Assembly (NCBI RefSeq): GCF_003989795.1
Contig: NZ_RZHG01000021.1
Location: forward strand, 62,001-126,000
Source of the DNA: Vreelandella andesensis
Lineage (GTDB): Bacteria > Pseudomonadota > Gammaproteobacteria > Pseudomonadales > Halomonadaceae
Length of the DNA: 64,000 nt
Reading direction: 5' to 3'
The translations under genes and the position numbers were made by a program. Below, piece by piece: positions 22,793 through 39,790 of this stretch (position 1 is its first letter; the number at the start of each line of letters is the position of its first letter). Under the pieces are notes generated by a model. That model saw only the letters and a program-made list of their open reading frames with translations. It was not told the DNA's origin and ran no database searches.

Positions 22793-23142
22793 GCTTTTTT
22801 GACAAACTCCAAACATCGCTGCAGGAAGCCGTTGAGATTAAACAGGGCAAAGCTGAGGCTAGCCGCATCACACGGCACGAAGTGGCTGATGTAAGAGCCA
22901 TTCGCGACAAGCTACATGTCTCTCAGGCGGAATTTGCTAGTGCCATGGGAACCAGTGTGGATACCATCAAAAGCTGGGAAACCAAACGTCGCAACCCTAC
23001 TGGCCTTAGCGCGAAAGCTAACGACTTTCCCTATTTACACCTTCGCTTTGCCGTCGATTACCGACTGAAAGCCAATGGGGGTAACTGGCTGGTTGCTAGC
23101 ATCCACTACTTTGCCGCCAATCCGCGCGAGCTCTTTCGCTAG
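22789..23142 (+). pseudogene. NadS-like XRE antitoxin, C-terminally truncated
   Basis: The first 78 or so residues are a typical NadS-family antitoxin (MSFFDKLQTSLQEAVEIKQG, then the helix-turn-helix LHVSQAEFASAMGTSVDTIKSWE and RRNPTGLSAK). After GLSAK the sequence stops resembling the family and reads through the antisense of the convergent ZipA-like gene. The homologous part therefore ends at about 23025, which marks a recombination junction. The DNA-binding helix is intact, so repression of the local promoter could persist. Confidence 0.65.
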
Positions 23143-23643: not shown

Positions 23644-23760
23644 CGCCGATTCCCTTCTAATTGTGTGATAAGCACTACCTTGGCGGCCAACTACGAGCTG
23701 AGCACGCGATTAATTTTGAATAACACTTAACAAGCACAGTCACATTCATGCTCGTCATCT

Positions 23761-24198
23761 TTAACTTGATATGTAATTGCGTAGGTCGTTAGCAACAGTT
23801 TCAGGAGAGGGCATACTCTGATTCTGTTTTAATAGATCCACTGGCTTTGGCCAAAATGAATCATGATAACTGACACTACTAATATCCACTGATTTAGAAT
23901 AACGAGGTATGACATGAAAGTGTACTATTGGATCAATCATCATCAATGCAAGATAATTTATTTTATCCGGAGAGTATACTATCGACAGAATTCTCTCGAT
24001 CTCTTTTATTGCAATGGACATATCAATAGCTTCTTGTTTAACCAGGTCACCAAGAGAAAATACTTCACGCTGCAATGATAGAACCATTGAACCTGGCGTC
24101 AATTGCACAGGACGAACAGATACCTTCCAACTCCCCACTGCAAATAGTCCAAGCGCTTGCGTTATAAATTTTTTGTTAAATTTATCAATCTCCTTCAT
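23761..24198 (-). CDS. HIT-like nucleotide hydrolase/transferase
   Basis: 145-aa protein resembling the HIT superfamily: a GSMVLSLQREVFSLGDL strand-helix like the typical HIT N-terminal region, an ALMMIDPIVHFHVIPRYS segment at the active site, and a C-terminal tail. The canonical H-x-H-x-H has Ile in place of its first His, while the two central His are retained. The ATG overlaps the stop of the cytidylyltransferase gene (ATGA), so it is the last gene of the four-gene decoration operon; it may hydrolyse or transfer a nucleotide-linked intermediate. AT-rich codon use compared with the flanks suggests transfer. Confidence 0.65.
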   Translation of the reverse strand: MKEIDKFNKKFITQALGLFAVGSWKVSVRPVQLTPGSMVLSLQREVFSLGDLVKQEAIDMSIAIKEIERILSIVYSPDKINYLALMMIDPIVHFHVIPRYSKSVDISSVSYHDSFWPKPVDLLKQNQSMPSPETVANDLRNYISS

Positions 24199-24623
24199 AG
24201 CAACTTCCCCCTCCCTCGCTTTTCTAACACATTTCGAATCATAGACGATGAAACACTAGGCGTATAAGGCAAATAAACCACCTTCACACCCTGCCTATCT
24301 AATTTTTCTTGATATTCATTAAAGTCAGGCTTTCCAAACCAATCATCTCCGACAACAAGCACATCATATCTAAGCCGCTCCCATGCCTTATATTTGTTAC
24401 GATCAGTCTGCGCCACACAAACATCCACATATTTTATAGATGAAACTATTTGGAGTCTTTGCTCATAAGGCACTACCAATGAGCCTGGCTTATACTCCTC
24501 TACAACCTCATCTGTAGATACACCTACGATAAGCTTATCTCCCAGCCCCTTAGCTGCTTTCAGCATATTCAAATGCCCAACGTGAAACATATCAAACGTT
24601 CCACAAGTGTAAACTGTTGTCAT
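24195..24623 (-). CDS. TagD-like nucleotidyltransferase (glycerol-3-phosphate cytidylyltransferase family)
   Basis: 142-aa cytidylyltransferase-fold enzyme activating a phospho-compound with CTP. Diagnostic motifs are TCGTFDMFHVGHLNML (HxGH, residues about 7-22), VGVSTDE, the QRLQIVSSIKYVD block, VVGDDWFGK and the closing TPSVSSSMIR (the ISTT/S-type motif). The ATG at 24623 overlaps the stop of the LicD-like gene; an in-frame start 27 bases earlier is unlikely. It probably makes CDP-glycerol or a related CDP-alcohol used by the LicD-like transferase encoded next to it. Confidence 0.8.
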   Translation of the reverse strand: MTTVYTCGTFDMFHVGHLNMLKAAKGLGDKLIVGVSTDEVVEEYKPGSLVVPYEQRLQIVSSIKYVDVCVAQTDRNKYKAWERLRYDVLVVGDDWFGKPDFNEYQEKLDRQGVKVVYLPYTPSVSSSMIRNVLEKRGRGKLL

Positions 24624-25807
24624 GCTACTTTCTCCAGCTTTTGCAGCCACAGCTGTGCAAGGTCATCATTCGGATAATGCTTCAAAAGAACTTTAAATTT
24701 CTTTTTTGCTTTCTCAAAATCATTTTTATCAAGCGCAGAAACAATACTGCTATAAGCATAGCATTCAGTCAGAAGAGAAAAATCACGCAACCCATTTGAA
24801 TCAATCAACGCATCATAATCAGGATCCGGCGTTTCCCAGTTACCATAAAGTGATTTAAGAAAATCTGCTGGTTTTTTAGGAAACCAGTAACTGTAACCAT
24901 TGCTCTCCTTCCTCTGCAGATCAACAGCAGACAGTTCCAATATCCTATTCCAATTTTTAGGGATACTAGGCATCCAGAAGCCATAAAGAGTCTTTCCTGT
25001 GGTTTTCTCAACTACAAACCCGCACAAATCTAGCGAGACCTTATTTTCTTTATGCACAAAGGAAATAGGATTAATCAGGCCAAAATTATTCCTATGTTGT
25101 ATCCAGCCATTTTCTTTCAATACTCTAGCAGCCTTTTCCGCTTCTGAAAAAGGTATTCCAATATCCAAGTCTTTGTCGTGGTCTAAAAGACCACCTTCTC
25201 GGACAATACCCAACAGAGTACCATGAGATGGAAATGCATGAACTCCTGCTTCTGCAAGTTGCGCAAGGGTATTCCATAGCAGAACTTCAGTTTCCGGCTT
25301 ATTAAAACCCTCTTTTCTTTTATTACCATCAATATTCTTAGAAATATTTTTTTTCGATAGTTCAAAAAGACATTTTCTATAGTTTTTTATAGCTTCATGG
25401 AGTTGCTTATTTCGCTGACAGGCGTTTGCAAACGCAACTAGCACCTTATAATTATCAGGATCTTTATCTATTGCTTTAGCCAGCAACTGAAAAGATTTTC
25501 TTCCACTGCCATATTTTGCATGCAGCTGCCCCATCTCTACAATGAGTTCTACATTATCAGGCCACTTCTCCAGTGCTTCCTCTAGCTCTTTAATACTAGA
25601 TTCAAGATCACCCTGCTTTATTTTTATCTTAGATACTAAGATAGAAAGCATAGGATGTGGACCTTTCGCGGCTCTCTTAGCCTTATTAACAATCTCACTT
25701 GACTTATCTATTTCCCCATTTGAAATTGCATTATTTGCCTTAGAAAGTAATAAAGAGAAATCATTTTTTCCATAAGTAATCGAAGATGCTTTTCGCCTTT
25801 TAACCAT
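24620..25807 (-). CDS. TPR protein fused to a LicD/fukutin-like phosphotransferase domain
   Basis: 395 aa. Residues about 15-150 are tetratricopeptide-like helical repeats (KIKQGDLESSIKELEEALEKWPDN, then KAIDKDPDNYKVLVAFANAC). Residues about 180-350 hold a LicD/fukutin nucleotidyltransferase-fold domain with GTLLGIVREGGLLDHDKDLDIGI, where the DxD pair (DLDIG) binds metal, and the FPKKPADFLKSLYG segment. A last TPR-like helix pair closes the protein. LicD enzymes move phosphocholine or similar phosphoalcohols from a CDP donor to surface glycans. Gap of 10 bases after the FkbM-like gene. AT-rich. Confidence 0.75.
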   Translation of the reverse strand: MVKRRKASSITYGKNDFSLLLSKANNAISNGEIDKSSEIVNKAKRAAKGPHPMLSILVSKIKIKQGDLESSIKELEEALEKWPDNVELIVEMGQLHAKYGSGRKSFQLLAKAIDKDPDNYKVLVAFANACQRNKQLHEAIKNYRKCLFELSKKNISKNIDGNKRKEGFNKPETEVLLWNTLAQLAEAGVHAFPSHGTLLGIVREGGLLDHDKDLDIGIPFSEAEKAARVLKENGWIQHRNNFGLINPISFVHKENKVSLDLCGFVVEKTTGKTLYGFWMPSIPKNWNRILELSAVDLQRKESNGYSYWFPKKPADFLKSLYGNWETPDPDYDALIDSNGLRDFSLLTECYAYSSIVSALDKNDFEKAKKKFKVLLKHYPNDDLAQLWLQKLEKVA

Positions 25808-25817
25808 TATCTTTCTT

Positions 25818-26732
25818 TCACCCCCAAATATCTGGACTGTAATCGCATGTCATCTTAAATTCATGGCTTTCATCTACGGGCCACACATAGCCTTGTGCTA
25901 CTAAATAGCTTTCTGATTTTTTAGCGTCTATATAAGTAAATATCTCATAACATAAATCATAAAATTTATACACACTATGTAAAATAAATGCGAGCTTGGT
26001 AAGCTGATTTACGTCCATGGCAGCTAGCCGCTCGTCCGTCGGCACAAACAGGGCATCTGCACTTAATAGTTCAGTTGCCTGAACTTTTTCCAGGGTGCGC
26101 TCCGTGGGCAAATGCGAATGAAATGCGGAGTTTTGAAAGCAGTAAAAACGGAAGCCATGGCGTGCCATCCAGTGGCTAATTTGAGCAATATCCCCTTGAC
26201 CGTGATGAGTAGGGCGGAAGGGGATACGTACTTGCACCAGCAACGTGTTAGCTAACGCTCGGTTGCCATGCTCTAAAATAGCAACATTGTCGTGCCGATC
26301 ATCCAGCAGCAGCCATTCAATATTGGGTAAACCTTCAATGTGATCAAGCGCCACAGAACTTACTGGGGTCTTGGCAATTACTTGGCGGGTACTCTTTTGT
26401 TTTTGCCAGGCGTTCTCCATGGGTAGCAGTGTAGTGCTGTAATTGGCATCCAAGCAGTGGTATAGCGTACCTGCTTGGCCGCTACCCAAGGTTGCTTGTG
26501 GAAACAACTGAAATTCATCTAACCCTTTTAAGGATTCATCTTCTACATAGACATTACCGGGGTCAAAAGCAATCACGGCAAAGCTATTCCATCCCATATA
26601 GGTAGTGAATAATTTCCGGCCGACTAAGTTACAGCCGTTATCCATTATCACTATACGACCACGCATATCCCACTGAAAACCTTCTACCTCCTGGGCTTCT
26701 TTATCTTCAGCGTTTGTTAGCACTTGGCTCAT
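25818..26732 (-). CDS. FkbM-like protein linked to flagellin
   Basis: 304 aa. The central part SSVALDHIEGLPNIEWLLLDDRHDNVAILEHG and the following LLVQVRIPFRPTHHGQGD align in order with the D-x-x-(G/D)-x-E-x-x-x-L-x-G and E-V-x-F segments of FkbM-type methyltransferases, but the usual Gly/Glu of the motif are altered. The C-terminal SADALFVPTDERLAAM and LTKLAFILHSVYKFYDL segments resemble proteins often placed next to flagellin genes. It follows the flagellin terminator and starts the decoration operon. Expected role: modification of flagellin or its glycan. It could also be catalytically inactive. Confidence 0.6.
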   Translation of the reverse strand: MSQVLTNAEDKEAQEVEGFQWDMRGRIVIMDNGCNLVGRKLFTTYMGWNSFAVIAFDPGNVYVEDESLKGLDEFQLFPQATLGSGQAGTLYHCLDANYSTTLLPMENAWQKQKSTRQVIAKTPVSSVALDHIEGLPNIEWLLLDDRHDNVAILEHGNRALANTLLVQVRIPFRPTHHGQGDIAQISHWMARHGFRFYCFQNSAFHSHLPTERTLEKVQATELLSADALFVPTDERLAAMDVNQLTKLAFILHSVYKFYDLCYEIFTYIDAKKSESYLVAQGYVWPVDESHEFKMTCDYSPDIWG

Positions 26733-26795
26733 ATAAAATCACTCTCTTACCGTGGAACATGGCAAGCAGTATGCCAGCCCACTCCACATTGCCCA

Positions 26796-26825
26796 ATAAA
26801 AAACCGGCCCACATGGGAGCCGGTT
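26796..26825 (-). terminator. Flagellin terminator
   Basis: On the - strand AACCGGC, a 10-base loop and GCCGGTT are followed by TTTTATT. It lies 49 bases past the flagellin stop and 64 bases before the FkbM-like start, so flagellin and the decoration operon are mostly separate transcripts. Confidence 0.8.
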
Positions 26826-26873
26826 CATTATGCTGCTCAGTGATCAAGCATAAGCTCTATCTTGGCAGTCAGA

Positions 26874-27986
26874 TTAGCCCAGCAGAGACAGCACATTCTG
26901 TGGAATCTGATTAGCCTGAGCCAGTACTGAAGTACCAGCCTGCTGCAGAATCTGTGAGCGTGTCATGTTGGCTACTTCCACTGCATAGTCGGCATCTTCA
27001 ATGCGCGAACGTGCGGCGGAGAGGTTAGTTTCATTGGTGTTCAAGTTGGTGATCGCAGACTCGAAGCGGTTTTGCACAGCACCAAGGTCTGAACGTAAGC
27101 TATCTACTGTATTTAGTGCAGCATCAATATTTGCGAGTGGATCTTCAGAACGTTGACCCGCCACTTGCGAACCAACATTTACCTTGATTCCATCTGCTGC
27201 AATTTTTCCATCGTCATTTCGAGTAATAGAAGTAGAGGCCGTAAAGTAAACAGTTGCTGAAGTAGCATCATCTGTTGCGGAGACAAAGAGATTACCTTCA
27301 CTGTCAGAAGTTAGAGCACCACTTGAGAAACCGCTTGGCAACGTAATATCAGCAACCGTAGCACTGAATGTCTGCGTACTTCCCGCAAAATCAGCACTTG
27401 ATGAAATATTTAAGTCCCCGGCGGAGGCTGCAGTCGGAGCCGTCCCAACATACCCATTGACATTAAAGTCAGTAGTATTAGTAAATAATGTATCTGCGTT
27501 AATTTCTTTCAGGTTGACTGAAATAGTTTCCCCATCGTTTGCACCAACCTGGATTTTAACTTCCTGTTCTTCAGAAAGAACTTTAACACCGTTAAAGTTG
27601 GTCTCACCTGAGATACGGTCAATTTCCGAAAGACGCTGATTGATTTCATCCTGAATAGATGTCAAGTCATCGGATGAGTTGGTACCGTTTTGTGCTTGGA
27701 CAGTCAGTTCACGCACACGCTGAAGGTTGTCGTTGACCTGATTAAGGGCGCCTTCAGCGGTTTGCGCGACAGAAATACCATCATTGGCGTTACGCTGAGC
27801 TTGGGACAGACCAGTGATCTGGGCGCTCATGCGGTTGGCAATGGCCTGACCAGCGGCGTCATCTTTAGCGCTGTTGATGCGAAGGCCAGAAGAAAGTCTT
27901 TCCATGCTGGTCTGAAGATCGCTTTGGCTCTTGTTCAGGTTAGACTGGCCAATCATTGATGTGATGTTGGTATTGATCACTGACAT
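26874..27986 (-). CDS. fliC: Flagellin
   Basis: 370-aa flagellar filament subunit. The N-terminal D0/D1 region (MSVINTNITSM, then LNKSQSDLQTSMERLSSGLR, and the TLR5-type stretch LQRVRELTVQAQNG) and the C-terminal D1/D0 region (from about DSLRSDLGAVQNRFES to LAQANQIPQNVLSLLG) are complete. The variable middle (about residues 175-285) is short and Ser/Thr/Asp-rich, suitable for O-linked decoration. The ATG at 27986 has an AAGGAG site upstream; the frame extends 8 codons further but these are not flagellin-like. A sigma-28 promoter lies 71-97 bases upstream. It sits inside the tRNA island, not in a flagellar operon. Confidence 0.96.
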   Translation of the reverse strand: MSVINTNITSMIGQSNLNKSQSDLQTSMERLSSGLRINSAKDDAAGQAIANRMSAQITGLSQAQRNANDGISVAQTAEGALNQVNDNLQRVRELTVQAQNGTNSSDDLTSIQDEINQRLSEIDRISGETNFNGVKVLSEEQEVKIQVGANDGETISVNLKEINADTLFTNTTDFNVNGYVGTAPTAASAGDLNISSSADFAGSTQTFSATVADITLPSGFSSGALTSDSEGNLFVSATDDATSATVYFTASTSITRNDDGKIAADGIKVNVGSQVAGQRSEDPLANIDAALNTVDSLRSDLGAVQNRFESAITNLNTNETNLSAARSRIEDADYAVEVANMTRSQILQQAGTSVLAQANQIPQNVLSLLG

Positions 27987-28056
27987 GGTGATTCTCCTTG
28001 CTTTGGACACTGGCCCTGAGGCCTGCTTTCGGCCACTGTTTGTGCCGTTATATTAG

Positions 28057-28083
28057 TTAACGGCTCAGCTAGGGAAAGCTTTA
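28057..28083 (-). promoter_or_regulatory. Sigma-28 (FliA) promoter of flagellin
   Basis: On the - strand TAAAGCTT, 11 bases, GCCGTTAA: a near-perfect match to the FliA consensus TAAAGTTT-N11-GCCGATAA, about 70 bases upstream of the flagellin ATG. Late flagellar control by the host's FliA is therefore expected. Confidence 0.88.
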
Positions 28084-28172
28084 GGGCAAGTGGTAAAAAA
28101 AAATGTAAAAGTTGGTAACTGAAATAGCAGCTTTTTCATTCTGGTGATGGGAGGGCCGCTGTTTTGAGTGCA

Positions 28173-30191
28173 TTACAAAAGCGCGGTTAAAGGCGTTGTT
28201 GTTGCCGTAGTGCTTGCTGGCTTTCCGCCGGGTTCCAGCGCATTTTGGTAAGCCAGCATAAAACGCGCTGGAATAGCGCCCAACAGCGTGCGCCTTGGGT
28301 AAACACCTGCCAGCGCCGGATAGCCGGAAGGGCGTGGAATACGCGGCTCTAATAGGGTCACTAATACGTCGTCATCTGGGTGGCGAAGAGCTCTACCTAA
28401 CCCTTGGCGTAGTTTGTGCAGCGTACGTACCGTGTTTTTACGCTGCAGCATGCCTTTGGCTATCTGGGCGGCTTCTACCGCGCCGACATTACGACGTTGT
28501 AGTGATTGCTCTATTAAATGTTGCTCTACTTGGCTGAGTATTGGGCGCGGGTTACGCACAATCACCAAGTGCTGCCAATACGCCTGGTTGGCTTCGCGTT
28601 GCGGTGAAAGCCCTTCCCACCCAGCGGGCGTTAGCAAAATGGCATCTTTGGCTAGCCGTGCCACTACATCACTCAGCCCCGTACCAGGATGATGCGCCAC
28701 GAGCCGGTGCGCGTGTTCAAACGGCCAAGCCGCTTCCAATGCGGCAACATCCGAGTAGCTTGCGCATAGCACCAGGGTACGGCCTGGGCAATCCAACAAA
28801 TAAGGCAGCGCTTGCTGGCAAAAGTCGCTAGCAAGCCGATAATCGCCGTTTGCTTGCTGCATTAGGGGGTGCGGTAATTGGCGGGGTAGACGGAAGCGCA
28901 AGGTGCCAAAGCGCTGTGCTTGAAAGCTCCGCTGTAGGCCACTGCGTTTATGCGTTATCGGCAGCTGTAGCTGACTGCGCATATAGCGAAAGTTAGGCGT
29001 TTCACCGGGTTCATGGTTTAAATCAGAAAGCGTTGCAGAGGTTAAAAACGTGACCCGCTCGCTGGCACCTGCTTTTAGGCTTGATGCCGCGCTGGGCGCG
29101 TGGGCCACCACACCCGGTAACCCGCGAACGGGGGAGTAATCAATCGCTAAGTAACGGCTTTCCTCACGCAGCCGAGCGGCCATTTTTTCTGCGTTTTGGC
29201 GTAGGTGCTGCCACTCGCGCCAACGGGAGAGTTCGTGGCTGCTTTCACGTAGGCGCAACGCCAGTAGCCCAGTGATGCTGCTTTGCAGTGCTTCACGTTG
29301 GTAGGGCGTTAAGCTGTGAGCACTGCCAGCGCGCTGGCGGTCGGTCATATTTTCCAACAACGTTTGCCACTGCTTGGCCACGCGATGTTGTTTTAACTGT
29401 TGAAGCAGGTGCGTGGCTGACTGCAGTGATACGCGATTGCTAAGTAGCTGTTCAGCAATGGCTGGATAGTGTTCGGCTTCATCCAATAGCAGCACATAGG
29501 GTGACTGCGCCTGGGTAATTTGCCCTTGGGTAACGAGGTCTACCGCTAGCAGCGCGTGGTTAATGACTAATACATCACTCTGCTGGGCAACCCGTTGCTG
29601 TGCTTCCAGGGCTTCTGGGATTGGGTCGTTGGCGCGCAGCGCTATATCCGCTAATAGGCAGTCTTCAGGCAACCAAGCGGGGTCAAGGTCGAGCAGGCAG
29701 CCATCACTCTCAAGTGCCCAGCCTGCCAGGCGACGCTGCGTAGTGCTCAAGTGGTCAGCGGTAGAGGCTTTTTCTAGGCTGGGTACGCCCAACGTTAGCG
29801 CTAAGCGTTCAGGGCTTAGGTAGTTTTCACGCCCCATACGTAAAGCAAAGCTGAGTAGCGGCAGTTGGGCATGGCGCAAATAGTCACTCACGATGGCGAG
29901 GTTATCCGGCTGCAGCAGTTGACGTTGCAGTATGCGGGAGTGGGTCGAAATTAACGCACGGCGGGCAGCCTGCTTACCGCCCATGAGTTTGCCTTTGGCA
30001 ACCCAGTCGGCCAATACCAATTGGTAGGCTAGCGACTTGCCGATCCCCGCATCACCTTCCACAAAATGCAGTTTGCCTTGTTGTAATAACCCGTCAATCA
30101 ACGCTTCAGCGTAGGCAATTTGCACCGGGCTGCGTTGAAAGCCGGGCCGCTGAGGGAGTACCTCGCTTAAGTAGTGAATAACCGGGTGCAT
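28173..30191 (-). CDS. csf4: Type IV-A CRISPR-associated DinG-like helicase (Csf4)
   Basis: 672-aa superfamily 2 helicase of the DinG type. Motif I is FVEGDAGIGKS (about residues 43-53), motif II LLLDEAEHYP (DEAE rather than DEAH), a TSATLS motif III/IV segment, and motif VI QGLGRALRHPDDD. Chromosomal DinG/XPD proteins carry four cysteines for an iron-sulphur cluster between motifs I and II; only a pair (CLLDLDPAWLPEDC) is present here, as expected for CRISPR-linked DinG lacking the cluster. In known type IV-A systems this helicase is needed for interference after the crRNP finds its target. Last gene of the - strand csf operon. Confidence 0.85.
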   Translation of the reverse strand: MHPVIHYLSEVLPQRPGFQRSPVQIAYAEALIDGLLQQGKLHFVEGDAGIGKSLAYQLVLADWVAKGKLMGGKQAARRALISTHSRILQRQLLQPDNLAIVSDYLRHAQLPLLSFALRMGRENYLSPERLALTLGVPSLEKASTADHLSTTQRRLAGWALESDGCLLDLDPAWLPEDCLLADIALRANDPIPEALEAQQRVAQQSDVLVINHALLAVDLVTQGQITQAQSPYVLLLDEAEHYPAIAEQLLSNRVSLQSATHLLQQLKQHRVAKQWQTLLENMTDRQRAGSAHSLTPYQREALQSSITGLLALRLRESSHELSRWREWQHLRQNAEKMAARLREESRYLAIDYSPVRGLPGVVAHAPSAASSLKAGASERVTFLTSATLSDLNHEPGETPNFRYMRSQLQLPITHKRSGLQRSFQAQRFGTLRFRLPRQLPHPLMQQANGDYRLASDFCQQALPYLLDCPGRTLVLCASYSDVAALEAAWPFEHAHRLVAHHPGTGLSDVVARLAKDAILLTPAGWEGLSPQREANQAYWQHLVIVRNPRPILSQVEQHLIEQSLQRRNVGAVEAAQIAKGMLQRKNTVRTLHKLRQGLGRALRHPDDDVLVTLLEPRIPRPSGYPALAGVYPRRTLLGAIPARFMLAYQNALEPGGKPASTTATTTPLTALL

Positions 30192-30222
30192 AGGCCATAG
30201 TATCTAGGTGGGAAGAGCGAAT

Positions 30223-30240
30223 GCCCCAGCGGGCTGGGGC
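30223..30240. other. Strong hairpin between cas6-like gene and dinG
   Basis: GCCCCAGC / GCTGGGGC, a perfect 8-bp stem with a 2-base loop, with CTGTTTT on its + strand side. It could be a transcript-processing or attenuation hairpin in the csf operon, or a relic of an array; see the adjoining repeat pair. Confidence 0.5.
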
Positions 30241-30278
30241 ACTGTTTTAGCGAAGATGATTTCGCAAAGACAGTTTAA

Positions 30279-30362
30279 GCAAAAGGATTCCCGCAAAGGC
30301 GAGAGGTTCAAACGTTCCATCGAAGTCTGCAATTCGTTGCAAACACTTCCGCTAAGGCGAAA
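30279..30362 (-). CRISPR. Possible degenerate two-repeat CRISPR unit
   Basis: Two related segments, 30279-30304 and 30339-30362, share roughly three quarters of their bases (GCAAA..., then TTCC(C)GC.AAGGCGA) and each can form a small CGC-4-base-loop-GCG hairpin. Start-to-start distance is 60 bases, leaving a 34-base spacer-like interval. That geometry fits type I-E/IV-A arrays, and the location directly after the Cas6-like gene is apt. The copies are imperfect, and no third clear copy is seen, so chance similarity is possible. Confidence 0.3.
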
Positions 30363-30395
30363 CGCCACCATAATAACCATAAAGTATGCGTCTTA

Positions 30396-30989
30396 CTAAC
30401 GTTGGCAAAGCATTCCCATGCCGTAGGCGCGTAGGCGTGAAACACCCTGCAACCAAGCATTGGCAGCATGCGCTTCATCAATCACCGTTACTTCAGCGTT
30501 AACCAGCACTACCGATTGATGAGAGGGGTGGTGCGGCTTGTGCTGCCAACTCCCCAGTGGGCTGAAAGAGAGCGTATCTGCCTTAATGTTAAACCCTTGG
30601 TGGAGCATGCGCTGTGTGACCACATTTTCCCAGCGCTCGCGCGGCGCGGGAATATGCTGGCTGCGGGAGAGCTTTTCACCGCTAGGCGATAACCGTGTGG
30701 CTATCGTGGGTACCCAGCACCACTCCAATCGCAACGTGTCTCCCTGGCAAAGCGCTAACCCCCGCTTAGTCGCGTGTGGAAATTCATGGGCTGAACGCAC
30801 GCTAAAAAGATGGCGCTCTTGCGTTAGCCAATCGAAACGAAAAATAAAGGGCCGTTGACGGGCTGGCGTGTGTGCACCACCAGAAAACAGCTGCCATGCG
30901 GTGCGATGGTAGTTTTCCAGCGTGACTGTCTGATCAGGCGCATGGCCTGGGTGGCACAGCGCCGTGGCTTCGTAGTAATGCACCTGCAT
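30396..30989 (-). CDS. csf5: Cas6-like crRNA endonuclease (Csf5 type)
   Basis: 197-aa RAMP protein expected to cut pre-crRNA at repeat hairpins. The C-terminal glycine-rich loop is visible as GVSRLRAYGMGML (residues about 182-194), the hallmark of Cas6/Csf5. A central FSPLGSWQHKPHHPSHQ and VTVIDEAHAANAWL precede it. Several histidines are candidates for catalysis but cannot be assigned by eye. It lies between the csf1- and dinG-like genes on the same strand, as in type IV-A loci. Its presence without an ordinary array suggests processing of arrays elsewhere in the cell or of the degenerate repeats next to it. Confidence 0.75.
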   Translation of the reverse strand: MQVHYYEATALCHPGHAPDQTVTLENYHRTAWQLFSGGAHTPARQRPFIFRFDWLTQERHLFSVRSAHEFPHATKRGLALCQGDTLRLEWCWVPTIATRLSPSGEKLSRSQHIPAPRERWENVVTQRMLHQGFNIKADTLSFSPLGSWQHKPHHPSHQSVVLVNAEVTVIDEAHAANAWLQGVSRLRAYGMGMLCQR

Positions 30990-31018
30990 TTCTTCATTAC
31001 TCTTTAAGGAGGCTTCTA

Positions 31019-31093
31019 ATGGTTCTTCTTACACGACTTCTTACGGTACGTCTCAAAAGTAGAAAGCACTACTTAGAGTTAGTAAACCGCTGA
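31019..31093 (+). CDS. Antisense small ORF (24 aa) between csf1- and cas6-like genes
   Basis: A short frame on the strand opposite the csf operon with a perfect AAGGAGG Shine-Dalgarno 6 bases before its ATG. The predicted peptide is basic and leucine-rich (MVLLTRLLTVRLKSRKHY and six more residues). The spacer it occupies (31,0-31,1 kb) has no other function I can see. It may be a real micropeptide, a regulatory leader or coincidence. Confidence 0.3.
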   Translation: MVLLTRLLTVRLKSRKHYLELVNR

Positions 31094-31108
31094 TTAAGAA
31101 ACCCTTGG

Positions 31109-32080
31109 TTAGAACAACGTGCCCTGGCGTTGGGTATCCGGCGTAGCATCGCGCTGAGGCGCGGGGTTCGTTTCAACCGCTAAGGGACGGCAGTAAGGTA
31201 ACAAGGCTTGCAAATGGGGCATGATCGCACCTAATACCGCAGGCAGTTTTAGGCGATCAAAAGGGTCTGCCGGTAGCGTTTGCAGCAGTGATTCCGGCTT
31301 GGGCACCTTTTCCAGCCATTCGGCGAAGGCTTTGTCATCCCGTTGGCCTTGGGCCGCGTCTAAAATTGGCTTCCAAAAGGTGATACGGTCTGCTTGAACG
31401 GTTAGGCCCTGCTCACTTAGCTGCTTGGCAGTCATGATCATGGCGTGTAAATCCAATGCGCTAACACCGCTTTCGCTGTTACACCAAAGCTCATGCAGCG
31501 AGGTGGTGGGCGTTAAGTGGCGCATTAAACCATCGACCTTTCGCCCCCAATTCTCAATATAAACAAATCCTTCGCTGATTGGGTCAAGCTCGCCTTGTGC
31601 TAGCAGCGCCAATAGCCTCGTGAGCGGTTTTTCGGTGCTTAACCGGCTTTGCTGCCCCCATTCACCTTGGCGATATTTTTCAAACAGCTTGGGGGGCAAC
31701 GTGAGGTATAGCTCTGCTTTTGGCGTAATGATGCCACCCGACCCCACCAGCATACCGAGCTTGCCATAAATCGGCGTGCGCGTATTGCCCGTGACGTTCA
31801 AGCGCTCTAGTCCCAACATCTCTTGGCTGGCAATGCGCGGAGTATAACAAGAGAGGCAAACGTACTCTGTTTCGCCGTTTTTACCATAACGATACTCAAT
31901 AGCTTGAAAAGGTGCTTCTACGTCTGCCCAGCGCCGGTCGCAGCAGGCACAACTGGGAGTATTAGGCGTTAGTGTGCTAATAAAAGCGCTGCGCCTTAAA
32001 GGATGCGTGGCATGGTAAAGCAGTTGATAGGCACGGTGGCGCGGGTTAAAGCTGCTGTGCAGTGGTGCCTCTTCTTTCAC
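31109..32080 (-). CDS. csf1: Csf1-like (Cas8-type) subunit of type IV CRISPR complex
   Basis: 323-aa protein with a four-cysteine zinc-finger near the N-terminus (CACC about residues 43-46, then VCLSC about 73-77), the signature of Csf1. It is longer than the roughly 230-260 aa usual for this subunit; the added part is C-terminal (helix-rich, ending in a QRQGTLF tail). In type IV-A complexes Csf1 occupies the large-subunit position near the crRNA 5' handle. The start overlaps the csf3 stop by four bases (ATGA). Assignment rests on the zinc motif, gene order and neighbours. Confidence 0.72.
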   Translation of the reverse strand: MKEEAPLHSSFNPRHRAYQLLYHATHPLRRSAFISTLTPNTPSCACCDRRWADVEAPFQAIEYRYGKNGETEYVCLSCYTPRIASQEMLGLERLNVTGNTRTPIYGKLGMLVGSGGIITPKAELYLTLPPKLFEKYRQGEWGQQSRLSTEKPLTRLLALLAQGELDPISEGFVYIENWGRKVDGLMRHLTPTTSLHELWCNSESGVSALDLHAMIMTAKQLSEQGLTVQADRITFWKPILDAAQGQRDDKAFAEWLEKVPKPESLLQTLPADPFDRLKLPAVLGAIMPHLQALLPYCRPLAVETNPAPQRDATPDTQRQGTLF

Positions 32081-32751
32081 GCAAGCACCTCACGCAGTAT
32101 TCGTGGTGGCCGATAGACAGGCTCATCTTTTCCTTTAGGGGTCAGGCGCAAGTAATCAGCCTGCGGTGTATAAGGCATGCCCGCGTGCATCGCTTGGTCG
32201 CGCCAACTACGCTGACACCAGCGGCGTTGCGTATCTGGCTCAAACGTTGTTGCCGTAACAGCCCCTTGGCCACGGCTATAGCCAATGCCGATATGGGGGA
32301 TTTCACCCAGTAGATCCAGGCACGCCTGCGCGTCCCCTTCCGCATAAAATATCAGGTAGGGGCATAACCGCCCTTTGTGTTGCGTTAGCTTTGGTGCCCA
32401 GTCACCGCCATCAATACGTAAGGGCGCGCGGACATTACGCGCTGCTAGCAACGGCAACTTATAAAGGTGGGACACTAAGCCAACTCCGTGGGCTTCCAGA
32501 CCAAACCGTGGCGTAACACCAAAGATCATTTGTGATGCACGAAACGCGCCCTGTTGCTGATCAAATACCAGCGGCAGCGGGTGCGCGACTGACCAATCCA
32601 GCGCTCGGCGGCTAGCGGCTTCCTGTAATAGCGTATCTAATCGCGGCACTATCCTTGGCAATACCAATGGCGTGTGCAATTGAAGCAACAATTTAAAGGC
32701 ATGTGCCTGGTGAGGATCGATGCCTTGATACGCAGGGTGTTCTTCTACCAT
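32077..32751 (-). CDS. csf3: Csf3-like (Cas5-type) subunit of type IV CRISPR complex
   Basis: 224-aa RAMP-type protein placed between csf2 and csf1. It has an N-terminal beta-alpha-beta pattern (HAFKLLLQLHTPLVLPRIVPRLDTLL), a LPLVFDQQQGAFRASQMIFG strand region, and a glycine-rich loop HIGIGYSRGQGAVTA near residue 155 as in Cas5/Csf3. The ATG at 32751 shares a base with the csf2 stop (TAATG), giving translational coupling; an in-frame TTG 15 bases upstream is less likely. It would cap the crRNA 5' end. Confidence 0.72.
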   Translation of the reverse strand: MVEEHPAYQGIDPHQAHAFKLLLQLHTPLVLPRIVPRLDTLLQEAASRRALDWSVAHPLPLVFDQQQGAFRASQMIFGVTPRFGLEAHGVGLVSHLYKLPLLAARNVRAPLRIDGGDWAPKLTQHKGRLCPYLIFYAEGDAQACLDLLGEIPHIGIGYSRGQGAVTATTFEPDTQRRWCQRSWRDQAMHAGMPYTPQADYLRLTPKGKDEPVYRPPRILREVLA

Positions 32752-33830
32752 TAGCCCTGCTTCCAACGCTTGCGGGCTTCTTGGCGGTTAAACAAGGTAA
32801 AGTCGTAATGGGGTAGCGCCGTTATAAATGATTGCCATGCTGCTTCGAGGACATCGCCTTCAAGCTGAATGCCAATATCGTCGAGTTTTACCGTACCAAT
32901 GGGCAACGCACGGCGCTCCCCTGGGGCACGCTGCAAGACTTCCCACTCGGCGCTAATGGCCCCAAAACCGTTGGCCAAGTGCCCGCCAAGACGTGGACGG
33001 TGTGAGAACTCCGCTAGGCAGTGCAGCAGCAGTCCAAGAATTTCTGGCGACCCTTCGATAAGCCGCAGTCGGCTCTGCAGTTCACTACCCGGCGCAATCG
33101 CTTCGTAGCCTGTTAGCGGATGCTTTATAGATTCGTCTGAACCTTCACGCTGTTTACGAACCTCTTTTTCCTGTGCTTCCAGTTCACGGACTTGTTTTGC
33201 AAATGCCTGCTTAGCCTCGCGGTCATCAGTTTGGCGAGACGCGACTCTAATCTCGCGAATTTTCACCCTGATGGCTTCGATTTCTACCATGCTTTCCCGT
33301 GCGCTACGCATTTCGCTCATTAGCGCCGTTTGCTCATCTTCACTCAGGTAAGTGACCAGCCGTGGGTCGTGCTCGAACTGATCATGGCGAGCCCCTTGGC
33401 CTGCAGTCATCAGGTTATCTACGCTGGTTAGCAGCGGCCCTACCTCAAGATAACCGGCCAACTTCCAACGGCCAAACAGGCTCATAAAAGGGTTTGCCTG
33501 GCGTAGAAAACCTTCCGCACGGGGGTCATGACTGGTGCCGGTAGCTTCGTTATTCACCTGGCGGGAAACATCAATACCTTCGCCCAACATATACATCTGC
33601 GCACGGTCGAAAACACGGTCTTCAGGTTTATCGTGCGCCTTCGCCAGCTCGCGAATCAGCATATTCAGGCCCGCTTTGCGTAACGGCCCCCGTAGCGTGC
33701 CACCGTTAAGAAACACCTGGCCGTGCGGAGTACGGGGCAGCCGTTCATCCATCCCGAAGTAGCTCACAGTGATGGGTGCTTCGGCAGTGATATGGCCGGA
33801 GAGCTGATAGGCAAGCGGGGTGGTGTTCAT
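32751..33830 (-). CDS. csf2: Csf2-like (Cas7-type) backbone subunit of type IV CRISPR complex
   Basis: 359-aa Cas7-family RAMP protein, expected to polymerise along the crRNA. The N-terminal strand GHITAEAPITVSYFG and the GGTLRGPLRKAGLNMLIRE segment (residues about 43-61) are the typical RNA-binding start of Csf2/Cas7 proteins. A long charged coiled-coil-like insertion (about residues 165-225) may be the thumb. RLGGHLANGFGAISAEW near residue 285 is a second glycine-rich conserved stretch. It is the first gene of the csf operon; its upstream 147 bases should hold the operon promoter. Confidence 0.78.
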   Translation of the reverse strand: MNTTPLAYQLSGHITAEAPITVSYFGMDERLPRTPHGQVFLNGGTLRGPLRKAGLNMLIRELAKAHDKPEDRVFDRAQMYMLGEGIDVSRQVNNEATGTSHDPRAEGFLRQANPFMSLFGRWKLAGYLEVGPLLTSVDNLMTAGQGARHDQFEHDPRLVTYLSEDEQTALMSEMRSARESMVEIEAIRVKIREIRVASRQTDDREAKQAFAKQVRELEAQEKEVRKQREGSDESIKHPLTGYEAIAPGSELQSRLRLIEGSPEILGLLLHCLAEFSHRPRLGGHLANGFGAISAEWEVLQRAPGERRALPIGTVKLDDIGIQLEGDVLEAAWQSFITALPHYDFTLFNRQEARKRWKQG

Positions 33831-33977
33831 AGTAACTGGGCGTTCCTGTCATCAGCGAAACCAAAGAAGACTATGATGGCATATCGGTCAGGAGAGTAAT
33901 AATGCGTTGTGCGTACAAAAAATAATACGTTTCGGCGTTTTGAAGCCGTCCCAGCAAGGGACAGCTTCATCGAATAC

Positions 33978-34475
33978 TTACAAATAACCCATCTCCGCAA
34001 ATGACTGACACCCATCGCTCGCCACCACTACGTGATCAATCACCCTTATATCCATCAAGCCAAGCGCCTCTTTCAGTCGCTCAGTAATGCGTCGATCCGC
34101 ATCGCTAGGCTCAGGATCGCCGCTGGGGTGGTTGTGAACCAGGATGACAGCAGCAGCGTTATAGGCCAGCGCTGCTTTCAGCACTTCACGTGGATAAACG
34201 CTGGCTGCATCGATGGTGCCGCGAAACATTTCCTCGAAGCAGATCACGCGGTGCTGGCTGTCCAGGAATAGGACGCTGAACACTTCGTACTCATAATCCT
34301 GAAGCAGTAGCTGTAGATGCTCAAACGCTTGCGAAGGCTGGGATATCTTGCGGCCTTTGGCGAGCTTACGCCGCGCAAAGCGCTTGGCCATGGTGATGAT
34401 GTCGGTTTCGGTGACCGGCGCTGTCACGTGATAAGTGCCTGCCACTTCACCGGCTTTGAGTTTGGAATGAGTCAT
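33978..34475 (-). CDS. RadC-like JAB-domain protein
   Basis: 165-aa protein with a JAMM/JAB metalloprotease-type core: the zinc motif HNHPSGDPEPSDAD (residues about 113-126) is intact, with the preceding VFSVLFLDSQHRVI strand. Short RadC-like proteins of this size are common on plasmids, phages and islands, and their biochemical role is unsettled. The ATG has a GGGAGG site upstream. It lies upstream of the csf operon on the same strand. Confidence 0.85.
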   Translation of the reverse strand: MTHSKLKAGEVAGTYHVTAPVTETDIITMAKRFARRKLAKGRKISQPSQAFEHLQLLLQDYEYEVFSVLFLDSQHRVICFEEMFRGTIDAASVYPREVLKAALAYNAAAVILVHNHPSGDPEPSDADRRITERLKEALGLMDIRVIDHVVVASDGCQSFAEMGYL

Positions 34476-34491
34476 TGTTGCCTCCCAAAAA

Positions 34492-34522
34492 TAAAAAAAT
34501 GCCGGGGTGGTGGCCCCGGCAT
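34492..34522 (-). terminator. Terminator downstream of the YqaJ/ERF transcript
   Basis: On the - strand ATGCCGGGG, a short loop and CCCCGGCAT are followed by seven T. It separates the YqaJ gene from the RadC-like gene. Confidence 0.85.
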
Positions 34523-34566
34523 CTATGTCATTAATGATGGATGGATATTGTTGAATAGTGGGTCGG

Positions 34567-35178
34567 TCACGCCGCCATCACTTGGCTGATGCGCCGCTCC
34601 ATCTCTTCGTGGAAAGCTTCGACCCGCTCGGCAATGGTGCGGATCATAATGTCGTCGCGGTAGGCGCGTTTGATAAACAGCGGCATGCCGGGCCAGTAAC
34701 TCACGAAGTCGATCCACTCTCGTTCACTGACCCACAGCCCGCCTTGGCACTGCGCCACGTGTTCCGCTGGGATTTCCCCGCTGAGCAACACCTCAATCTG
34801 GAACTTGGGCAACTTGGTCTTGATCTCCAGCAGGCCATTAGCCCCCACTAGACTGTCAGGCGAATAGCCCACGTGGTGGTTAAGGATAATGCCCACTTCC
34901 TGTGGCGCTGGCTCACCGGTAGCATCGCAGTAAAGCTCTCGGGCCACGGCTTCCAGCTCGTGGCCCCTTCGGGTATGAGCATTGCCTTGAAACGGCTCGG
35001 CCAATTCACCGGTGATGCGTTCGCCAATCAGTTGGTGCATATACGAAAAGGCCCCAGTGCCAAATCCACCGGGGCCTTTGCCGTTGACCAGCAAGGTCTT
35101 GAGTTCCGACATGGTGACGCGCCCTAAGCGCGCCGCCAGCCATTCGGGGGAGCCTTGCTCCATGTGAAGCACGTCCAT
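34567..35178 (-). CDS. YqaJ-type (lambda exonuclease-like) recombination nuclease
   Basis: 203-aa PD-(D/E)XK nuclease of the YqaJ viral recombinase family. Visible are the start QGSPEWLAARLGRVT, the metal-binding YSPDSLVG and LLEIKTKLPK (ExK, about residues 117-126) and the VAQCQGGLWV segment (typical Q of the family). It degrades one strand of a duplex end for annealing by the ERF-type partner encoded 50 bases upstream. A strong AAAGGAGG precedes the ATG. The pair is a phage- or plasmid-type recombination system. Confidence 0.85.
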   Translation of the reverse strand: MDVLHMEQGSPEWLAARLGRVTMSELKTLLVNGKGPGGFGTGAFSYMHQLIGERITGELAEPFQGNAHTRRGHELEAVARELYCDATGEPAPQEVGIILNHHVGYSPDSLVGANGLLEIKTKLPKFQIEVLLSGEIPAEHVAQCQGGLWVSEREWIDFVSYWPGMPLFIKRAYRDDIMIRTIAERVEAFHEEMERRISQVMAA

Positions 35179-35228
35179 AACGACCTCCTTTGGATGAGGG
35201 TTAAGGTGAATAAAGGTAATAACACCGG

Positions 35229-36014
35229 TTATTGGACGGCGCGCTTGGCTAACGAGGCCCGCAGCTTATCGAAGTCACTTTGGGGCACTTGCACCGCCGA
35301 ACCATATTTGCCGCTGAACCACTCTTGCGTGGTCGCTGGGCATTGGCTGATCAGGCGCTGAATCTGCCCCGCCTGGAAGGGCGTTACTAGCCTGACGCCA
35401 CCGGCAGCACTCCCGTTATCATCTTGGCCGCGTGTAGTGATGTTAAGCAGCGCAGACAGCACATAGCGTTTGCCATAGCTGGTAGAAGATCCAAACGCCT
35501 GTACCGCGTTTTTGTTACCACTCATATCCGCAGGCAATAGCATGCTGGTCTCTTCGCGGTGACCGTCTTTGTGCATCAGTACACCCGTTACCTGAATACC
35601 GCGTTCCTGGGTCTGAATACGAAAGCTCACCGCAAAGCCGTGCTTCTGCATAATGGGGCGCACGGTATCGACGATATCTTCCAGCGTGGCGTAGAAGCCG
35701 TTGTTGGTTTTACCCCGCTCTTCAATGCTAGGCAGTTCGGTCTGCATCGCGGCCATGGCGGTGCTGTAGGCCATCATGGCCTGGCGATCCATGACCCGTT
35801 CCTGCATTTGCAGCAAACGCTCCATCTTGTCGATATCGACGTCCGGGTTGAGTGCGGCACGCTCAATCACCTGAATGATCGCGGTGCTATCAGCCGTGGG
35901 ATGCGCCTCTAGCGCGGCAGTGGTAGGGGTATTTGTCGCATTAGCGTCTGCTTGAAGGGCGGACGGTGGGACTTTGCGATTAGCCGCATTTACTACATGA
36001 GTACGCTGTGCCAT
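35229..36014 (-). CDS. ERF-family single-strand annealing protein
   Basis: 261-aa protein of the ERF (essential recombination function) superfamily. The core runs from MAYSTAMAAMQTELPSIEERGKTNNGFYATLEDIVDTVRPIMQKHG (residues about 80-127), a clear ERF signature, through SSTSYGKRYVLSALLNI near residue 175. The Ala/Thr-rich N-terminal tail is variable. It works with the YqaJ exonuclease directly downstream in homologous recombination of phage or plasmid DNA. Confidence 0.86.
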   Translation of the reverse strand: MAQRTHVVNAANRKVPPSALQADANATNTPTTAALEAHPTADSTAIIQVIERAALNPDVDIDKMERLLQMQERVMDRQAMMAYSTAMAAMQTELPSIEERGKTNNGFYATLEDIVDTVRPIMQKHGFAVSFRIQTQERGIQVTGVLMHKDGHREETSMLLPADMSGNKNAVQAFGSSTSYGKRYVLSALLNITTRGQDDNGSAAGGVRLVTPFQAGQIQRLISQCPATTQEWFSGKYGSAVQVPQSDFDKLRASLAKRAVQ

Positions 36015-36077
36015 GGGGCACCTCCTGTAACGTTAAGAGAAAAACACTGGGCGAATAACGCCCATGCATGGGTGAGC

Positions 36078-36272
36078 TCACTGAGCGTGAACGGTCTCGT
36101 CGGGTAAGTGATGGGCAATGTCAGCAGGGTCAATTCGCTCCAGGCGTACCTCCGCTCGGTAAAACTCGCCCTGGGCACAGACCAGCGACGTCGCGCTATG
36201 GGCGTTGTGATCTAACAGCTGTTTGGTGAGCCGTGTGAGTGCCATTTCAATAGCATCAGAGATAAAGCGCAT
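36078..36272 (-). CDS. Small hypothetical protein (64 aa)
   Basis: No family recognised. The ATG at 36272 has a GAGG ribosome site; the frame extends upstream but without a good start. It is mixed-charge, with an N-terminal amphipathic helix (FISDAIEMALTRLTKQLLD). It lies between the DUF932 gene (after a terminator) and the ERF gene, in the same direction, as is usual for small plasmid genes. Confidence 0.55.
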   Translation of the reverse strand: MRFISDAIEMALTRLTKQLLDHNAHSATSLVCAQGEFYRAEVRLERIDPADIAHHLPDETVHAQ

Positions 36273-36302
36273 GGTTGTACCTCGCAGCATAAGCCCCACA
36301 GC

Positions 36303-36334
36303 AAAACGCCCAGCCTTTGAGGGGCTGGGCGTTT
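36303..36334 (-). terminator. Terminator after the DUF932 gene
   Basis: On the - strand AAACGCCCAGCC and GGCTGGGCGTTT arms around a short loop, then a T-run. It separates the DUF932 gene from the ERF/YqaJ unit. Confidence 0.85.
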
Positions 36335-36406
36335 ATGCCGTGGAGGGAGTGGTTATCATTGGGTGAATCGCGTTTTGGAGTAGAAGGAACGTGGCTTCAA
36401 GGTTGG

Positions 36407-37375
36407 CTAGGAGACCAGTGCCAAGGCCGCATCCAGTGCTTCTTGCTTGAGCTGAGCGCCTTGGCCGAACCACGCTGAATCCATTCGCGTGTCGTTACTG
36501 CGTGCCCGCTTGTCGTGATCGACGTATTCGGTCACCGCATTGAGCAAGCCCCAGGCCGTGTCTTTGGCCGTCACCAAGTGAGACCCTCGGCCTTCGCCGT
36601 GGTAAAGCTTCTGCACCTTATTGAGTGCCCGGTAGTTAGGCAGCTTGGAAGGATCGTCTAGCGGCGTCTCGGCCCCGCAAATCACCGACTGGAAATACTG
36701 CTGGGCTTCGTGTCGAGTGATCTTACGCTCTGCTAGGTTTTTCATTCGGTACATAAAGTCATTCCACTGAGACACCGAAATACCCAGCTGACGCTTCACT
36801 GCACGCGGGTCAAACTCTGAACGGTGTGGCACCTTCACCGCTTGCGAGGTGCCATCGACGGCAATTTGTAGCGTGTTATTGCACACCACCCTGACGGTGG
36901 TTGGCGTGGCCATCGTCGCCAAGGTGCCGTCACAGGACGTAGCCAATAGCAGGTAGTCGTTGACTTCATCTTGGCCCTTAAGCGAGGTGCTTAGGCCACT
37001 GCGGGCCAAGGCCCAGAACTTACGCCCGCCTTTGAGCACGCCAGCGGTTTCTAGCTCATACCCCGCGTACTCGGTCAGATCGCGGTAGAACTCCAGAATT
37101 TCTTCGGGCTGTACTACCTTATAGCGCTGCGACACCACCGACAGCGGAGCCTTGGTATCGGAGCGGTAAAGCACCTTCTGCTCAGGGAACGAGTGAATAC
37201 TGCCCAGGTGGCTGGCCCCTTCGGCAATAAAGCGCACCGGTGCTTCCTCGATATGCCAGTTCATACCGGCCTGTTGCTGCCAGACCTCTAATGGTTGATG
37301 ACGAGACAACTGCTGCCCCAGGCCATGCCACGGGGTAGCGCCCACGTAAGCCATTTGTTCAACAAGATGAGCCAT
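36407..37375 (-). CDS. DUF932 (phage/plasmid-like) protein
   Basis: 322-aa member of the DUF932 family, common on conjugative plasmids and phages and of unknown biochemical role. Typical strings are the AYVGATPWHGLGQ start, QRYKVVQPEEILEFYRDL near residue 100, and WALARSGLS. The ATG at 37375 has GAGGAAA upstream; eight further in-frame codons before it are not family-like. Its presence supports a plasmid origin of this part of the island. Confidence 0.85.
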   Translation of the reverse strand: MAHLVEQMAYVGATPWHGLGQQLSRHQPLEVWQQQAGMNWHIEEAPVRFIAEGASHLGSIHSFPEQKVLYRSDTKAPLSVVSQRYKVVQPEEILEFYRDLTEYAGYELETAGVLKGGRKFWALARSGLSTSLKGQDEVNDYLLLATSCDGTLATMATPTTVRVVCNNTLQIAVDGTSQAVKVPHRSEFDPRAVKRQLGISVSQWNDFMYRMKNLAERKITRHEAQQYFQSVICGAETPLDDPSKLPNYRALNKVQKLYHGEGRGSHLVTAKDTAWGLLNAVTEYVDHDKRARSNDTRMDSAWFGQGAQLKQEALDAALALVS

Positions 37376-37493
37376 TATAATTTCCTCATAGAATTTCAAT
37401 AGGTATCAACACGAACGGCTTAACAGCCCGCCTTAACAGGAAGCGGGCTAAGCCGTGATAGCGTCATGGAAGATAGGGATGGGTGAGCTGCGA

Positions 37494-37850
37494 TTAGCGA
37501 GACGGATAGCTAGGATATTCCGCTAGCGGCAACCGAAAGGTGTGACCACACGCGCGGCACTCGATGTTATCAAGCACCTTTGTATCTAACTCTTCTCCAA
37601 GCCGGGCACCGGCCACACCGCCTGCGGTGCCGCCCACTAAGGCACCAAACAATGCGCCTGCCAGCGTGCCAATCGATACTCCCACCGGGCCTGCCACAGC
37701 ACCGACAGCCGCACCGGCTTTGGCACCGCTAAGCGCGCCCATAGCACCGGTCGTACCGCCGGAGACAACACCGGTGGTCGCACCAATATGACGACCTAAT
37801 TGACGAGGGATAAGCTGCGTGGACGTGCAGCGGGGACAGTGAGCTGTCAT
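37494..37850 (-). CDS. Small zinc-ribbon protein with glycine-zipper core
   Basis: 118 aa starting MTAHCPRC. An N-terminal CPRC and a C-terminal CRAC pair (about residues 5-8 and 97-100) could form a zinc ribbon across a central Gly/Ala-rich glycine-zipper-like region (about 23-80) that may insert in membrane. The upstream 18 in-frame codons lack a ribosome site. The role is unknown; similar proteins are found on plasmids. A long hairpin (37420-37458) follows it and may terminate transcription. Confidence 0.65.
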   Translation of the reverse strand: MTAHCPRCTSTQLIPRQLGRHIGATTGVVSGGTTGAMGALSGAKAGAAVGAVAGPVGVSIGTLAGALFGALVGGTAGGVAGARLGEELDTKVLDNIECRACGHTFRLPLAEYPSYPSR

Positions 37851-39614: not shown

Positions 39615-39790
39615 CCCCACTAAGTGAAGCGGCACGGCCTTGACGTATCACTTTGCTCATCATTCCCCGTAAAACCCGTCATTTAAGCCTTCGAAGACGC
39701 CTGCCGTAGCCACCACTACGGCAGCGACATGCTATGGACACATCCATGACGCCGCAATGGCGGGCGTCTTCATTGATACGAGGTTACCCA

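Follow-up and report, generated by a model that had tools for sequence, protein, structure and literature searches.

A type IV-A CRISPR cassette with a flagellin-matching guide on a tRNA-Leu integrative element of Vreelandella andesensis

Introduction

What does a type IV-A CRISPR (clustered regularly interspaced short palindromic repeats) effector cassette do when it lies on a chromosomal element and appears to have nothing to guide it? This question is raised by a 64,000-nucleotide stretch of the Vreelandella andesensis genome (assembly GCF_003989795.1, contig NZ_RZHG01000021.1, positions 62,001 to 126,000), which is called the window below. Five cas genes occupy 28173-33830 of the window, next to a flagellin gene, fliC. 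The original prediction described them as a type IV-A-like cassette in a chromosomal tRNA island, without an ordinary array or adaptation genes, which might use arrays elsewhere in the cell or have been repurposed. We found a single spacer hidden between cas6 and dinG. The suspicion of repurposing is supported. The spacer matches flagellin genes; the adjoining fliC, which is carried by the same element, keeps the peptide encoded at the matching site but uses other codons.

Results

The effector genes

The cassette consists of the following genes:

32751..33830, minus strand: csf2 (cas7); PADLOC 2.4e-72, PDB 8rc2_A 1.8e-41
32077..32766, minus strand: csf3 (cas5); PADLOC 3.8e-40, PDB 8rc2_F 7.5e-9
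31109..32080, minus strand: csf1 (cas8), 323 aa, with CxxC...CxxC and a C-terminal extension; PADLOC 4e-115, profile against 8rc2_G 2.7e-4
30396..30989, minus strand: cas6; PADLOC typeIV_Cas6 2.1e-65, PF08798 1.1e-7
28173..30191, minus strand: casDinG (csf4); PADLOC 2.6e-215, PDB 8s35_M 1.8e-20

Judged by sequence, this is a real and complete type IV-A effector set that is closest to type IV-A3. The genes that define type IV-A (csf2, csf3, csf1, cas6/csf5 and a CRISPR-associated DinG) are all present, Cas6 being recognized by PADLOC and Pfam only, and they are co-directional in the order csf2-csf3-csf1-cas6-dinG. As single sequences, Csf2 and Csf3 matched one IV-A3 entry in PDB (8rc2) and DinG matched another (8s35). 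Csf1 had no Csf1 match there as a single sequence and reached 8rc2_G only as a three-sequence profile. Cas6 matched no IV-A chain in PDB, and its profile hit Cse3/Cas6e weakly (0.0012). The NCBIfam models of Csf2, Csf3 and Csf4 scored below their own cut-offs and that of Csf1 was unmatched; the AlphaFold model of Csf1 was unusable (predicted local distance difference test score of 37.9).

Thus, the assignment of the five genes to type IV-A was borne out by PADLOC and by the IV-A3 matches in PDB, including a profile check. Csf1 (323 aa) is indeed longer than the IV-A3 chain that it matched (263 aa). The description of the genes as mostly overlapping holds for csf2-csf3 and csf3-csf1, but not for csf1-cas6 (a gap of ~120 nt) or cas6-dinG (204 nt). 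The reported lack of adaptation genes agrees with a search of the V. andesensis genome for Cas1, which gave no match, and is supported as far as Cas1 is concerned.

A probable one-spacer array between cas6 and dinG

The 204-nt gap between cas6 and dinG contains, at 30289-30367 on the minus strand, two degenerate repeats 58 nt apart that flank one spacer:

30370..30375, minus strand: TATTAT, a possible -10 element of the guide gene, suggested by alignment and position
30339..30367, minus strand: degenerate repeat 1, composed of 5 nt, the stem-loop TTTCGC-CTTA-GCGGAA (30347-30362) and the 8-nt handle GTGTTTGC (30339-30346)
30310..30338, minus strand: spacer of 29 nt, matching flagellin codons for LQTSMERL
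30289..30304, minus strand: stem-loop of degenerate repeat 2, TCTCGC-CTTT-GCGGGA

V. aquamarina and V. azerica share this unit. Averaged over pairs of the three species, identity was 0.89 in the stem plus handle of repeat 1, 0.75 in the spacer and 0.96 in repeat 2, compared with 0.37 and 0.29 outside the unit. Synonymous sites of the neighboring cas genes differ at 67–86% among the same species, and conservation of the unit on this background points to strong constraint on non-coding DNA. The short -10-like block (identity of 0.63) reads TATCAT and TATGAT in the two other species. An exact 16-nt stem pattern was found only at this unit in the genome of the window and, likewise, in the genome that we take as V. 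aquamarina 558 (G199); the genome taken as V. azerica (G195) had, at the same place, one exact match and one match with a single mismatch. In a further member of the family (G054), the same cas6-dinG gap holds an ordinary array with a spacing of 61, and a longer array follows dinG.

The statement that the cassette has no array is therefore correct for ordinary arrays near it, but it overlooked the unit at 30289-30367. Our direct-repeat search revealed no array near the cassette among the 20 largest of 42 direct families; the two degenerate repeats of the unit were not picked up by it. The Rfam scan of the window found only tRNA. One more hairpin in this gap (GCGAA..TTCGC) was rejected as a candidate third repeat for lack of conservation. 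The idea that arrays elsewhere in the cell serve the cassette gained no support from the two patterns with which the 34-contig assembly was searched. The stem pattern with up to one mismatch occurred at five places, two of which are the unit itself and three of which are unpaired, and one exact I-E/IV-A stem pattern gave no matches.

The spacer matches flagellin genes

When translated, the spacers of the three species all give LQTSMERL, a peptide conserved at the N-terminus of flagellin, in differing synonymous codons. Type IV-A complexes leave every sixth base unpaired, according to passages of PMC11519345, and we masked these bases in scoring, which leaves 25 read positions. When each of the three guides was compared with 32 distinct flagellin sites, its best match agreed at 23, 22 and 24 of the 25 positions. 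Control spacer pieces from the ordinary arrays of two relatives (16 in all, 14 of 15 stems being used from L018 and 2 from L019) scored 14–17. When 62,805 30-mers of the window were compared with 35 flagellin regions, the guide ranked first, and the V. azerica guide was the best of 18,455 30-mers in its locus. In the V. aquamarina locus, five 30-mers outscored the guide, all of them just upstream of its own fliC (which was itself in the target set).

We also searched 275 Halomonadaceae genomes, again with every sixth base masked and allowing up to three mismatches. The window guide yielded 13 matches (itself, the V. aquamarina unit and 11 flagellins) and the V. aquamarina guide yielded 37 (itself, the window unit and 35 flagellins), with no matches for the reversed-pattern controls of either guide. 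The 33 matched places read as loci comprised 31 flagellin frames and the two units. Seven matches of the V. aquamarina guide, for which no locus was read, were all among 41 flagellin sites collected by pattern.

Handles of 7 and 9 nt, as alternatives to 8 nt, were weighed by reasoning only. In the 8-nt register, the unread positions match flagellin least (class means of 1.56, 0.84 and 1.97 of 5) and form the lowest of six classes for all three guides, a result partly confounded by these all being third codon positions. Taken together, a flagellin-directed guide within a degenerate one-spacer array is well supported at the sequence level.

The flagellin gene of the element is recoded

26874..27986, minus strand: element-borne fliC, 370 aa from MSVINTN
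27895-27923, minus strand: site in this fliC equivalent to the guide, codons 22-31, recoded
28057..28083, minus strand: sigma-28 type promoter of this fliC, TAAA-N15-GCCGTTAA, assigned by pattern match to what we take to be the sigma-28 consensus

At the site equivalent to the guide, the element-borne fliC keeps the peptide but has Ser AGC and Arg AGA, compared with TCG and CGT in the guide. An AGR arginine codon (AGA/AGG) occurs there in all four fliC genes linked to a cassette (window, V. aquamarina L003, V. azerica L002:15649 and a relic, L025). No other arginine of the gene is encoded by AGR in the window, V. aquamarina or the relic (15, 14 and 15 arginines, respectively); in V. azerica, three of 16 arginine codons are AGR, this one included. 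Among the 41 flagellin sites collected by pattern, five had AGR, namely the four linked genes and the second flagellin of the window's genome; two more, both AGG and both of another flagellin type, appeared among 33 flagellin rows. Typical flagellins of other genomes had CGY in 20 of 20 cases (Fisher 9e-5, post hoc and uncorrected for relatedness). These 20 represent one gene per stretch L042-L061; three additional flagellins from these stretches, which belong to another type (L044:5286, L050:838 and L059:12563, one of them with AGG), were omitted.

The serine codon class is opposite between the guide and its own linked fliC in all three species, and in V. azerica the case is reversed (AGT in the guide, TCC in fliC). 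The three guides agree with their own linked fliC at 16, 17 and 14 of the 25 positions; of the 20 typical flagellins, 20, 19 and 20, respectively, fit the guide better. Positions 15-17, 25 and 27 are among the mismatches in every one of the three species; blocks of mismatches at these positions abolish IV-A1 interference or weaken IV-A3 binding (PMC11519345). Because the single guide matches flagellin genes and the adjacent fliC sits inside the same element, this fliC, earlier noted merely as a neighbor, is probably the point of the cassette.

The integrative element

21130..47484, no strand: integrative element of ~26.3 kb in tRNA-Leu, with end repeats at 21130-21189 (left) and 47398-47457 (right)
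46257..47333, plus strand: tyrosine integrase; PF00589 1.7e-19
47398..47484, minus strand: tRNA-Leu (caa), attachment site
25818..26732, minus strand: gene without family assignment, relatives of which are found close to fliC in 7 of 20 other Vreelandella stretches
24195..25807, minus strand: cytidylyltransferase-like gene and TPR/LicD gene; PF01467, TPR, PF04991

The predicted chromosomal tRNA island was confirmed by the tRNA-Leu, the adjacent integrase and a 60-base direct repeat with two differences, and both fliC and the cassette lie within these end repeats. The element also holds genes of replication, repressor and recombination types. Its cytidylyltransferase-like and TPR/LicD genes have a putative role in flagellin modification. 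Just beyond the left end, a 2145-aa open reading frame (ORF; 14366-20803) had no Pfam match. No tRNA was found near the cassettes in eight other loci examined.

Relatives of the cassette

Csf2 matches were detected in 10 of the 275 genomes, three of which have N-terminal pieces only and two of which have distant matches only (28–32%). The nearest relatives are those of V. azerica (DinG, 75%) and V. aquamarina 558 (DinG, 72%). DinG relatives on plasmids were below 60% identical in all 459 records, with 23–27% in the 30 listed, and among 390 genomes sampled from the order, a DinG search (1e-40) matched only the genome of the window. No Csf2 relative was found in phages and no DinG relative in viral contigs.

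Several loci contain damaged or partial sets. In V. azerica (L002), transposase-like ORFs, which we take to be of the IS3 type, occupy the place of csf2 at 6445-7650, and dinG has a frame change at 11752-11758, near its end. A relic cassette beside fliC (G230:C90, L025, 9215-9760) retains the beginning of csf2, which an internal deletion has joined to the end of dinG. Scraps of the csf2 N-terminus are present in G024, G217 and G216 (L020, L021 and L022); the G024 scrap adjoins a piece of an ERF gene, and an ERF gene is also located near csf2 in the window. Two csf2-csf3 copies (61%) in G014 (L016, L017) both end at contig ends. Distant type IV-like sets with arrays of 58–60 nt spacing were observed in G230:C1 (L023, 4654-4956) and G269:C3 (L024, 14196-14474).

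Flagellin genes elsewhere in the carriers

In 15 of 20 other Vreelandella stretches (L042-L061), fliC adjoins fliD. V. aquamarina has another flagellin type at the fliD-linked place. In the genome of the window (L062, G000:C29:1-8000), the fliD-linked fliC stops after NSAKDDA, and a second flagellin then starts at MIAQRNL with its own ribosome site; on another contig (L063, G000:C27:30000-42463), flagellin resumes at KDDAAGQ near an ORF that is presumably an integrase. This arrangement suggests that fliC was interrupted by another element, which carried a flagellin with it.

Discussion

We consider it fairly likely that the element is a flagellin-exchange island whose type IV-A complex silences other flagellins, spares its own and works in the manner of TldR-FliC prophages. 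The element would carry a flagellin-exchange module composed of its own fliC, putative modification genes and a IV-A effector with one hard-wired guide. Guide RNA would be transcribed from the two degenerate repeats between cas6 and dinG, and Cas6 would cut the precursor after the repeat stem, with the guide being loaded on Csf2-Csf3-Csf1. The Csf complex could then pair with other flagellin genes at approximately codons 22-31, in the mRNA sense, over the LQTSMERL codons. One guide may reach many flagellin alleles because every sixth base is unread and most differences there are synonymous. From what is known of IV-A biology, we infer that binding together with CasDinG would block flagellin transcription without cutting, to the benefit of the element. 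The element's own fliC would escape because its peptide is kept but its Ser and Arg codons differ from those of the guide.

We lean, if only slightly, toward the broader proposal that this IV-A complex is a dedicated allelic-exclusion switch on a mobile island, by which the flagellin swap of TldR prophages was invented a second time with a class 1 effector. If so, the only job of this CRISPR-Cas complex would be to control one kind of cellular gene, with own and other copies told apart by codon choice. Such a function would represent convergence with TldR on flagellin exchange, would explain some seemingly arrayless type IV-A sets, and would provide a natural, directly testable escape from a guide by synonymous recoding.

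Several observations weigh against flagellin exchange as proposed here. No carrier's guide has a flagellin of its own genome within three mismatches; the best non-linked flagellins in these genomes agree at 20 of 25 positions (five mismatches), and when only the flagellins of its own genome are considered, two other places equal the score of the window guide (20). Guide position 5 is mismatched in most flagellins, and at native guide levels one mismatch in the seed is enough to relieve IV-A1 repression (PMC11519345). The same source gives AAN as the known IV-A protospacer-adjacent motif (PAM). The flagellin sites instead have CAR on the PAM side in 40 of 41 rows (the search pattern itself asked for CAR), although AAN is not a defining feature of the gene set. 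At the RNA level, the promoter scan found no sigma-70 promoter for the guide unit, repeat 2 scored as terminator-like in the window, and the predicted folds form the hairpin of repeat 2 in each of the three species and that of repeat 1 in the window alone (fold z-scores of -0.75, -2.03 and -1.82). AGR codons also occur in flagellins outside the linked set (L062:475 of the window's genome, L069 and L050:838). V. azerica has an additional flagellin, split in two (L002:14252), that is closer to dinG and lacks the recoding. In a flagellin tree of poor resolution, the linked fliC genes do not group as a single clade, and relatedness was uncorrected. Furthermore, the V. azerica cassette lacks csf2 and has dinG split over two frames, and the fliD-linked fliC, which is the best own-genome target, is broken in both V. 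azerica and the genome of the window. This break fits the decay of a silenced gene but is not proof of it. The own-genome and seed mismatches, CAR, the missing promoter and the broken V. azerica cassette would be compatible with a weak or former function, or with an effect on incoming elements that carry flagellins.

The last of these would mean that a flagellin-directed guide acts on elements that bring or replace flagellins, rather than on the resident gene, and that fliC was recoded for the same reason. We regard this as unlikely. It agrees with the action of known IV-A systems mostly against plasmids (PMC11551745), with the better fit of the guides to flagellins of other species (1–3 mismatches) than to those of their own genomes, and with the second, unusual flagellin beside the broken fliC. 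However, the guide targets the most general part of flagellin, and a competitor element bearing a flagellin is hypothetical, with phages yielding no relative of Csf2. The alternative that the unit is a fossil of a once-working array, its last spacer directed against flagellin by chance and now decaying, appears quite improbable. The unit has been kept in three species despite high synonymous divergence, the cas genes are open in the window and in V. aquamarina, and the spacer codons have changed while the flagellin match was kept and the linked fliC was recoded. Decay would nevertheless account for the degenerate repeats, the loss of csf2 in V. azerica, the G230 relic, the csf2 scraps in three other genomes and the imperfect targets in own genomes.

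It could also be asked whether the conserved stretch is a guide at all, or instead a gene for a small peptide or a leftover piece of flagellin, given that each of the three species has an open frame for LQTSMERL. This seems very improbable: the frame has no common start or stop, changes outside the 29 nt alter residues, and flagellin similarity ends at the stem-loops, which are themselves the best-conserved part.

In the open-licence papers searched, including passages of PMC10910872 and PMC8175902 and with preprints outside the scope, we found no text that links type IV CRISPR with flagellin. Compared with the type IV-A3 systems of Klebsiella and Raoultella plasmids (8rc2, 8s35), the cassette in the window has the same five subunits by sequence and resides in a genome without a Cas1 match, but it lies on a chromosomal element, has one spacer and has the gene order csf2-csf3-csf1-cas6-dinG. 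The one IV-A plasmid examined has a different order (an unnamed gene, cas6, dinG, another unnamed gene and csf2). Within Halomonadaceae, G054 and G031 share the gene order of the window (Csf2 50–53%, DinG 48–49%). In contrast to the window, they have ordinary arrays, with repeats like GTGTTCCCCGC....GCGGGG (15 stems in G054, two repeats in G031), spacers without a flagellin match and no fliC in the examined stretch.

By analogy, the nearest precedents are a pilN guide and the TldR-FliC prophages. In Pseudomonas oleovorans, a natural guide of a IV-A1 system regulates the chromosomal pilN, a surface-organelle gene (passages of PMC11551745). The window resembles it in having a IV-A guide that matches genes of a surface organelle and may regulate them. 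In P. oleovorans, the self-targeting guide is one of several in an ordinary array, whereas the window has a dedicated single guide, its own linked copy of the target gene and recoding. TldR-FliC prophages carry their own flagellin beside an RNA-guided repressor of host fliC (passages of PMC13418256), and the window likewise combines a flagellin gene on the element with an adjacent RNA-guided system, the guide of which matches other flagellins. Because the five cassette proteins match families of type IV-A, the element is not a TldR-FliC member. TldR is a single, TnpB-related protein directed at the promoter of the host, whereas the window encodes a multi-subunit class 1 complex with a match in the coding region.

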